Assembly (NCBI GenBank): GCA_003250355.1
Contig: QKGS01000077.1
Span: 62,001-126,000, forward strand
Reading direction: 5' to 3'
DNA: 64,000 nt
Origin: Bacteroidota bacterium
Lineage (GTDB): Bacteria; Bacteroidota; Bacteroidia; Bacteroidales; SZUA-534
The position numbers and the translations under genes were made by a program. Positions 31,428-35,509 of this stretch are shown in pieces (the first letter of the stretch is position 1; every line of letters begins with the position of its first letter). The notes under the pieces were generated by a model. The model searched no databases. It was not told the origin of the DNA and saw nothing but the letters and a program-made list of their open reading frames with translations.

Positions 31428-32231
31428 TTATTTCAGCGAATCTAAAGTTTTCTGAGATACAAGAAATACAACCGGATTATTAGACAAGGGGTTGGTTTTG
31501 GTAATAACCACAGTATCGTACACTGCTTCAATATTTTCGTAATTAACTATTTCATTTGGAGTACCTTGTGTATATTGAGTGCCATTTTTCATCATTATTA
31601 GATAATCGCAGTATTCGCTGGCAAGGTTCAGGTCGTGAATAATCATGAGTACAGTAAGCCCCAGTTCATCATTGAGTTTTTGAATAAGATTAAGTACTTG
31701 CACCTGATGAGTAATGTCTAAGTACGATGTAGGTTCATCTAGTAGCAATAGCTGCGGTTCTTGTGTAAGTGCCCGGGCTATGCTTACAAGCTGCTGTTCT
31801 CCACCACTAAGTTCATTCATATATTTATTACGCATACGCCAGGTATCGGTCATTTCCATATACTTTTGGGCAATAGCGTGATCATATTTCGATTCAAAAA
31901 AATTCAGATGCTTTTTGTGCGGTATACGTCCCATAAGAACGTACTCGTATGCTGTAATAGCTTCGGCATTAATTTTTTGTGTAACTATGGCTATATTGCG
32001 GGCTTTTTCTTTATAGCTCATATTACTAATATTAATGTTATTGAGTAAAATTGAGCCTTTATGTGCTTTAAGTTCCTGGGTAACACCTTTAAATAATGTA
32101 CTTTTACCTGAACCATTTGGACCAATTATTCCTGCAAAACTTCCCTTGTGAATTGAAAAATTTACATTCTCAATTTTAAAACCGGTACGGTATCCACATG
32201 AAAAGTTTTCTATTTTAAAAAAGTTCTTCAT
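31428..32231 (-). CDS. ABC transporter ATP-binding protein (iron-siderophore/cobalamin type)
   Basis: The protein has 267 residues: Walker A GPNGSGKST, signature LSGGEQQLVSIARAL, Walker B LLLLDEPTS and the His loop (MIIHDLNLA). It belongs to the FecE/BtuD group and pairs with the permease encoded upstream. I take the ATG at 32231; the TTG at 32246 would place the start inside the heptamer array. No periplasmic binding-protein gene is adjacent, so substrate (siderophore, haem or cobalamin) is open. Confidence 0.9.
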   Translation of the reverse strand: MKNFFKIENFSCGYRTGFKIENVNFSIHKGSFAGIIGPNGSGKSTLFKGVTQELKAHKGSILLNNINISNMSYKEKARNIAIVTQKINAEAITAYEYVLMGRIPHKKHLNFFESKYDHAIAQKYMEMTDTWRMRNKYMNELSGGEQQLVSIARALTQEPQLLLLDEPTSYLDITHQVQVLNLIQKLNDELGLTVLMIIHDLNLASEYCDYLIMMKNGTQYTQGTPNEIVNYENIEAVYDTVVITKTNPLSNNPVVFLVSQKTLDSLK

Positions 32232-32378
32232 AGTATTAGGTTGCAAGTTATAGGTTATAGGTTACAAGTTGCTGGTTGCTGGTTTAGTTTCTAGCTTTCG
32301 TATCATTTTTCATTTCAATATTCTAAGTTCTTACTTCAATATTCGGTATGCTGACTTATGATTTTAGCATTCTTACTT
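32232..32378 (-). repeat. Array of 21 phased heptanucleotides
   Basis: The whole gap between the permease stop and the ATPase start reads as 21 consecutive 7-nt units on the coding strand. The first overlaps the permease stop codon and the last touches the ATPase ATG. Exact repeats include AATATTG twice and AAGTAAG twice (three times with a degenerate neighbour AAGTCAG). Towards the ATG the units follow the pattern NNNAACC/T: AGCAACC, AGCAACT, TGTAACC, TATAACC, TATAACT, TGCAACC. The unit boundaries keep one phase across 147 nt. Function unknown. Confidence 0.75.
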
Positions 32379-33380
32379 TTTCAGGCTAGTTTTTGCCAAA
32401 ACAACAATAAATACGGTTCCTCCAACTATACCGGTAATAACTCCTACCGGAAGTTCATTGGGCGATATAATGGTACGAGCCAAAGTGTCGCATAGAACTA
32501 TAAATATTCCACCTATTAAAAATGAACTTATTAGTAGCATTCTGTAATTGTTTGATATTATTAAGCGAACCATATGAGGAATAACTAATCCAACAAAACC
32601 TATAACTCCTGCTACTGCAACACTAATACCAACAAGCAACGATGATATTATAAACAATAACCGTATACTCCATTCAGTATTAACTCCTAAGTGACGTGCT
32701 TTTTCTTCGCCCAATCGCAGCGCATTAAGCGGTTGTACAAATAAATAAGTTAACACAAGTCCGGCAATAGAAGCTATTGCTGCAGTTTTTATAAGTGTAA
32801 TGTTGGGCTCATCGAGTGACCCCATTATCCAAAATACTATACTATGCACTTGTTCCGATGTTGAAGTAGACATAATAAACATCATGGCTGAGGATGAAAT
32901 GAAACTTATCATAACCCCTATTAGCAGCATACTTTGAATTCGGATACGACCGTGTCGGATACTCAGAAAATAAACCATAAACACAGTAATAACAGACCCG
33001 GCAAATCCGGCAAATGGCAATAGGTAAGTTGTTGCAGTATGTGCTACTCCAAACACTATAACCAAAGCAACCCCCAAAGCTGCTCCACCCGATATGCCAA
33101 GAGTGTATGGTTCAACAAGCGGGTTGCGATATATACCCTGAAGTATTACTCCTGCAAGGCTCAATGCTCCACCAACAGCAAAACCCAGTATTACCCTAGG
33201 TATTCGTATATGAGTAAGTATTGTATACGACATAGTACCTTTGCCGTTTTTTAAAATAGATAGCAGCTCTGAAAAGCTGAGTTTTATTTCGCCTATGGTC
33301 ATAGAATAGAATATGGTTATTGTGCTAAGTATAACAAGAATAACCAGTATTATAATCCATTTCAAATATTGCTTTTCCAA
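32373..33380 (-). CDS. FecCD/BtuC-family ABC permease
   Basis: The protein has 335 residues with about ten membrane segments and the conserved RIPRVILGFAVGGALSLAGV, NPLVEPYTLGISGGAALG, GFVGLVIPHMVR and ELPVGVITGIVGG blocks of siderophore/cobalamin permeases. The start is TTG: an in-frame stop precedes it without any ATG, and the first membrane span would be lost from the next Met. It works with the ATPase encoded downstream. The 3' end runs into the heptamer array. Confidence 0.92.
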   Translation of the reverse strand: MEKQYLKWIIILVILVILSTITIFYSMTIGEIKLSFSELLSILKNGKGTMSYTILTHIRIPRVILGFAVGGALSLAGVILQGIYRNPLVEPYTLGISGGAALGVALVIVFGVAHTATTYLLPFAGFAGSVITVFMVYFLSIRHGRIRIQSMLLIGVMISFISSSAMMFIMSTSTSEQVHSIVFWIMGSLDEPNITLIKTAAIASIAGLVLTYLFVQPLNALRLGEEKARHLGVNTEWSIRLLFIISSLLVGISVAVAGVIGFVGLVIPHMVRLIISNNYRMLLISSFLIGGIFIVLCDTLARTIISPNELPVGVITGIVGGTVFIVVLAKTSLKK

Positions 33381-35481: not shown

Positions 35482-35509
35482 AATAACTTGCAACTTGTAA
35501 CCTGTAACT
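35482..35509 (+). repeat. Heptanucleotide tandem repeat, same family as 32232-32378
   Basis: Four consecutive units on the coding strand, AATAACT, TGCAACT, TGTAACC and TGTAACT, end 7 nt before the ATG of the second chromate transporter gene. TGTAACC also occurs in the permease-ATPase gap and TGCAACT differs by one base from a unit there. Confidence 0.75.

Follow-up and report, generated by a model that had tools for sequence, protein, structure and literature searches.

The 141-nt gap between the permease and ATPase genes of an ABC importer operon in a Bacteroidota genome carries a 7-nt periodicity throughout, and it very probably grew through the slipped-strand gain and loss of heptamers, together with their decay, within a weakly constrained spacer. 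Arrays of the same period are found in excess across the genome, and in a related genus such arrays differ between near-identical genomes by whole heptamers.

Periodicity and make-up of the permease-ATPase gap

The window, the whole stretch of 64,000 nt that was analysed, carries both genes on the minus strand. The upstream gene (32373..33380) is predicted to encode an importer permease of the BtuC/FecCD class (best NCBIfam match 4.2e-67, with all matches below the curated cut-offs) and the downstream gene (31428..32231) an importer ATPase of the BtuD/FecE class (best NCBIfam match 1.2e-64, also below the curated cut-offs). The ATPase is read from the ATG at 32231, and its relatives, the best of which have 57-58% identity, align from residue 1 of the protein starting there. 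The permease ends in SLKK followed by TAA, and as this stop codon lies at 32373-32375 the gap measures 141 nt (32232..32372), or 20 x 7 + 1. The preliminary description had given it as 147 nt dividing exactly into 21 heptamers, a length that extends into the permease by its stop codon and the preceding AAG, and the second of the two AAGTAAG units listed there is the AAG-TAA-G of the permease end, overlapping the gene. Two in-phase copies of AATATTG do lie within the gap, and seven units of the form NNNAACC/T are present as described, but they are not the last seven since a TAATACT unit stands between them and the ATG.

The identity of the gap with itself at successive lags was compared with that of 2000 dinucleotide shuffles. 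At lag 7 the whole gap reaches an identity of 0.567 versus 0.307 in the shuffles (z 7.1, equalled by 0/2000), which bears out the strong 7-nt phasing originally noticed. The harmonics at lag 14 (z 3.6) and lag 21 (z 5.2) are raised as well, and lags 5, 6, 8 and 9 show no excess over the dinucleotide shuffles. Taken alone, the 3' 57 nt give a lag-7 z of 5.5 (0/2000 shuffles) and the 5' 84 nt a lag-7 z of 3.8 (1/2000) and a lag-21 z of 4.2 (0/2000), with lag 14 not significant in the latter (z 1.2).

The two parts differ in how well their units are preserved. The 5' part (32289..32372, minus strand) consists of strongly diverged heptamers, AATATTG, AAGTAAG, AACTTAG, AATATTG and others, many of which resemble one another weakly. 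Near-identical, regular units are confined to the 3' part, where AACCAGC units precede a strict AACYTRY array (AACTTGT, AACCTAT, AACCTAT, AACTTGC and a final AACC; 32239..32270, minus strand; pattern match at G000:C83:94240-94270), and Tandem Repeats Finder (TRF) reports periods of 7 and 21 at 32237-32284. The gap is thus a mosaic of drifting heptamers with an AACYTRY array at its end. A second, shorter AACYTRY array lies on the plus strand of the window at 35484..35509 (TRF period 7, 3.7 copies; lag-7 segment 35485-35508, score 13), between two genes that we take to be ChrA-like half genes; when one of these ChrA-like proteins was searched against the family, none of the other 19 genomes yielded a relative.

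The junction of the two genes could be compared directly in five orthologous operons (59-65% identity in the permease, 56-66% in the ATPase). Between the permease stop and the ATPase start there are 2 nt in L058, 11 nt in L059 and -1 nt in L051 and L052, both labelled as uncultured Prolixibacteraceae MAGs, so that the array is absent or nearly so in all four operons with a placeable ATPase start. In the fifth (L060) a usual start codon could not be placed, and the ATPase match begins at residue 3, 9 nt past the permease stop. As the orthologous junctions are tight, the array is a lineage-specific expansion and not a conserved leader. Among distant homologues (29-35% identity) the gap ranges from 1 to 100 nt, with 13 of the 16 loci yielding both genes and 9 a start.

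We also looked at the gap for conventional regulatory features. Its predicted RNA fold is no better than that of shuffled sequence (z -0.25), no promoter-like sites fall in the gap, one such site falls inside the ATPase gene versus 1.2 expected, and a single weak terminator-like match in the gap lies on the strand opposite to the operon versus 0.2 expected. Readings of the stretch as an RNA structure, a promoter or a terminator were therefore set aside, with no fold above shuffles and site matches near expectation or on the wrong strand. The preliminary description had the array occupy the whole 5' leader of the ATPase; the stretch is an intercistronic spacer.

Heptamer arrays in this genome and its relatives

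In order to place the gap in its genomic setting we used an 849-kb sample made up of the window and whole-contig stretches; the sample leans towards array-bearing contigs, having been picked among contigs with pattern matches, and genes in it were approximated by long ORFs. Its gaps of at least 30 nt hold 28 lag-7 segments scoring at least 14, versus 0-2 in each of ten shuffles, which extends the lag-7 result beyond the one locus, and the same gaps hold 0-4 segments at each of lags 5, 6, 8, 9, 10 and 11. Among noncoding segments scoring at least 18 there are 21 at lag 7, 7 at its harmonic 14 and at most 3 at any other lag from 4 to 16. Gene orientation is co-directional for 25 of the 28 arrays, divergent for 1 and convergent for 2, giving densities of 0.62, 0.06 and 0.22 arrays per kb respectively. 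The assertion that ordinary spacer DNA does not show such phasing is accurate with respect to shuffled sequence, but arrays are present in 22/266 co-directional gaps of at least 30 nt in this sample. The genes beside the arrays are of unrelated kinds; examples include junctions that we read as aroB-like/dehydroquinase-like and argB-like/argE-like, and what is presumably a phage-like head operon. In this last setting (phage-like head-protein operon, L137 9578-9688, G000:C44:89578-89688) a 111-nt array drifts from ATTGAGT-like to AACCTGC-like units.

Certain words recur throughout the genome. The AACYTRY pattern AACYTRYAACYTRYAAC occurs at 115 places versus none for its reversed form and none for a version spaced by 8 nt, and AGTCTCC doubled with at most two mismatches occurs at 102 places versus 9 for the control. 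Several arrays combine different words in one phase. A universal core was considered: ACT/AGT runs in phase through 15/36 arrays versus 0.23 expected per random heptamer, but it was rejected as a general core since it is not in the 14 commonest trimers listed for 12 arrays of G011, a genome of genus g7 in the same family.

Similarity between units was followed in 66 arrays, of which the 849-kb sample supplied 28 and loci of this genome chosen for AACYTRY the other 38. Mean identity falls with distance, from 0.73 between neighbours, a value inflated by the selection of arrays on lag-7 score, through 0.62, 0.55 and 0.49 to 0.31 at ten units. Such a falling curve argues against independent copies of one consensus, which would give a flat one. 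Identical neighbouring units number 104, compared with 54 (sd 5) after within-array shuffling of the units. For the 31 arrays with at least three strict AACYTRY units, 33/89 neighbours are identical, weakly exceeding the 26.5 (sd 2.8) of shuffles within arrays; pooled shuffles give 15.6 (sd 3.6). Lag 7 is also richer in transitions than lag 8 (transitions to other mismatches 445:503 vs 931:1754). Three-unit runs common to different loci number 17 versus 19.8 expected and four-unit runs 0 versus 1.3. As unit order is not common to loci beyond chance, no recent copying from array to array is seen; copying of arrays between loci was rejected on this ground, and the dedicated 7-nt copying process suggested by the preliminary description finds no backing in the same counts.

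The words are not equally distributed among relatives. In our family set of 20 genomes, in which the genus of the window is represented by the window's genome alone, AACYTRY arrays occur in 14 of the other 19 (77 places versus 1 for the reversed pattern). Among 197 other genomes drawn from the class they occur in 25, at 124 places versus 157 for the reversed pattern, which also has period 7. AACYTRY is therefore enriched in this lineage only, as the reversed pattern is equally common across the class, and its standing as a class-wide special word was rejected; period-7 arrays of other words are widespread in the class. Period 8 is not absent either, since the 8-nt-spaced pattern has 31 places in the 197 genomes, 15 of them in one genome (G129), and its reversed form has 68. 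That genome, a member of the Bacteroidia, carries period-8 arrays of nearly the same word (AACCTATC) at its 15 places (e.g. C1:998888-998922) and the period-7 pattern at none. Genus g7 uses words of its own, with 11-12 noncoding lag-7 arrays scoring at least 12 in 140 kb of G011; density varies within the genus, with none in 120 kb of G016. G002 has 2 noncoding lag-7 arrays in 140 kb.

Whole-heptamer differences between near-identical genomes

Since the family set contains a single genome of the window's genus, changes in unit number were followed in the arrays of genus g7. The iorA-iorB gap measures 152 nt in G011 and 166 nt in both G009 and G016, whose flanking proteins are nearly identical (iorB 99-100%, iorA 97-100%), and the differences consist of whole heptamers only. 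Relative to G011, and with gain and loss unpolarised, a single block is longer by two heptamers in G009 and by one in G016, which also has an additional ACTCATT further along. Both genes are present in seven other g7 genomes, and the gap has a different content in six of these (94-257 nt) and a related one in the seventh (156 nt). Gap content is replaced between species whose flanking proteins are 97-100% identical. Outside the genus the gap is 15, 6, 25, 38, 17 and -4 nt in six genomes and 223 nt in G006. In three iorA-iorB gaps of g7 (L182, L184 and L185) near-identical operons have differing spacers, a palindromic GTAGGGACGCGATTAATCGCGTC repeat being present in some, as if the spacers had been replaced whole. 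The cysK-moeB region, which contains what we take to be a thiS-like gene, is 310 nt in four species and 289 nt in G018, the difference being made up of two indels, of 7 and 14 nt, in the array that precedes moeB. The region is 356-467 nt long in four species that are more diverged.

In a survey of 170,622 aligned bases, summed over comparisons of G011 with six genomes, there were 36 clean noncoding indels, 13 of them of at least 3 nt. Eight of these 13 are multiples of 7 (four of 7 nt, three of 14 nt and one of 21 nt), P 1e-4 under an expectation of 1/7, in a small sample and with not all events independent since the eight fall at 5 loci. The other five are of 3, 9, 9, 15 and 43 nt. All four of the 7-nt indels are near-copies (at least 0.85) of a neighbouring unit, and the 14- and 21-nt ones match at 0.71-0.81. 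ORF-masked DNA gave 15 indels, one of them of 7 nt, and between G019 and G010 there are six noncoding indels, four of them of a single nucleotide and the other two of 13 and 14 nt. An initial pass through every genome pair, in which events were deduplicated by flanks only, gave 13/24 multiples of 7, with 9 nt second (5). Indels of 9 and 18 nt together form the second commonest noncoding class of at least 3 nt in that pass (e.g. L101 at about 15297 and L245 at about 17815), hinting at a separate period-9 class.

Origin of the arrays and comparison with known repeats

Slippage combined with point mutation accounts for the period, for neighbouring units being alike, for the phase persisting through diverged units, for indels of whole units and for gaps specific to a lineage. 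An operon junction that was once tight would have been lengthened through repeated single-heptamer gains and occasional losses, with slipped-strand mispairing as the agent, while point mutations would have driven the units apart. The AACYTRY part would then represent younger neighbours that are still alike and the 5' part older ones, nearly unrecognisable with their phase kept. Other arrays here and in relatives would have been made in the same way, mostly in co-directional gaps with no promoter to disturb, and their scarcity between divergent genes fits a loss of promoter-disturbing arrays. Growth by 7-nt slippage, one of the two origins initially offered, is favoured by neighbouring units being more alike than distant ones and by g7 arrays differing by whole heptamers. 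We infer that polymerase slippage is the agent, that the array in the window grew as those of g7 do and that it lacks a selected role. Nothing found suggests such a role, given the missing fold and promoter, the turnover of content and the unrelated neighbouring genes; a modest effect of the array on ATPase translation may exist.

Chance or base composition can be dismissed with near certainty as the source of the pattern: many 5' units are weakly alike and the claimed 21-unit fit was wrong, but no dinucleotide shuffle matches the lag-7 identity, the harmonics at 14 and 21 are raised and the excess is genome-wide, and it was rejected on the shuffle test of the gap and this wider lag-7 excess. 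It is improbable that the gap acts as a functional leader, that is, a row of 7-nt sites through which a single-strand RNA-binding protein of the cold-shock, S1 or Csr type might control the ATPase. The array does end at the ATPase start, most arrays are found in co-directional gaps and are for this reason probably transcribed, AACYTRY is in sense in 10/16 such gaps, and a proposal of this kind has been published for the TAACTGA repeats of Beggiatoaceae (PMC4679880). Against a leader function, four orthologous operons lack the array, the words vary from locus to locus and from genus to genus, gap content is replaced despite 97-100% identical flanking proteins, the sense bias is weak (10 vs 6), the RNA fold does not exceed shuffles, and the genes next to arrays are of unrelated kinds.

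Some copies of a multicopy gene encoding AAA-ATPase_like (PF09820) and PDDEXK_9 (PF08011) domains, with 20 matches in the genome (L160-L179), many at contig ends, end in a composite heptamer module ([GTTRYAR]n, [GGAGACT]n and others; L004, L029, L138, L145, L150 and L156). The spread of arrays with such a mobile or amplified element, the window's array being a remnant, is quite unlikely. AACYTRYAAC occurs in the fetched flanks of 8/20 PF09820 loci and AGTCTCC-type doublets in those of 3/20, and PF09820 loci (C29, C31 and C102) are among the best matches to the array of the window, but the contig holding the window (C83) has no PF09820 match, BLAST matches to the array span at most 49 of the 141 bases, none of them follows both parts of the gap in order, and unit order is not common to loci. 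Arrays as the ends of this gene, true at 8/20 loci, were accordingly rejected for the window. Very unlikely too is a templated process in which an enzyme with a short template, such as a reverse transcriptase or one acting in break repair, would add set heptamers at many loci, in the manner of telomere repeats at healed breaks. It would suit the recurrence of AACYTRY and AGTCTCC far above their controls and the rise of arrays at junctions that are tight in relatives; however, near-identical genomes differ by gains and losses of units inside arrays, words vary between genera, and one array may hold several words in one phase.

Purely local slippage from random seeds would not be expected to produce AACYTRY and AGTCTCC again and again across the loci of a single genome. 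The reuse might reflect certain words being preferred by the process itself, their dispersal long ago, or weak selection. We regard as rather doubtful a "repeat dialect" in which a lineage's replication or repair factor with a fixed step would prefer certain words that re-arise uncopied at unrelated junctions: AACYTRY and AGTCTCC here and GAATTAY and TTAGGAW in the sister genus, all of period 7, and AACYTATC of period 8 in G129. On the slippage reading, part of the operon spacer DNA in some Bacteroidota arises from a mutational process with a 7-nt step, which advises caution against taking such heptamer leaders for regulatory sites, and the proposal that polymerase contact length sets the step becomes testable in this phylum.

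The gap array is best read as a Bacteroidota case of the known bacterial heptanucleotide repeats: it has tandem 7-nt units above chance and a period of 7 favoured over neighbouring periods, and variation in unit number is seen for the arrays of g7. Among the papers listed by literature text searches, which did not reach most subscription journals, none dealt with AACYTRY arrays or with indels of 7 nt in Bacteroidota. The cyanobacterial STRR heptanucleotides differ from those of this genome in words and in phylum. They too are tandem heptamers dispersed in the genome (cited in PMC4692102). Heptanucleotides are over-represented among bacterial simple repeats, and polymerase contact length was proposed as the cause of the 7-nt step (Mrazek et al. 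2007, as cited in PMC4679880 and PMC4692102). Our arrays share with those repeats tandem 7-nt units in excess of other unit lengths; unlike those, which as cited were scored as long and regular, their units are strongly diverged with several words per phase, and 7-nt indels between relatives are seen here.

Besides the cyanobacterial precedents named in the preliminary description, direct repeats of TAACTGA are described from Beggiatoaceae, cyanobacteria and five Bacteroidetes (PMC4679880). These are likewise intergenic heptamers near gene starts, and in some Bacteroidetes they are mixed with other heptamers, with a relative's shorter gap lacking obvious repeats. The word TAACTGA itself is not present in the 141-nt gap, and where that account infers transfer and regulation, slippage is favoured here. 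The heptamers GGGAATC and GGGGA(C/T)T of Xanthomonas and Nostoc are rare between divergent genes (Rehm et al., PMC4692102) and, as described there, resemble ours in being dispersed, intergenic, poor between divergent genes and subject to changes in length and sequence from one close species to the next; those heptamers are G-rich and G4-forming, whereas the words found here are A-rich or low in G runs.
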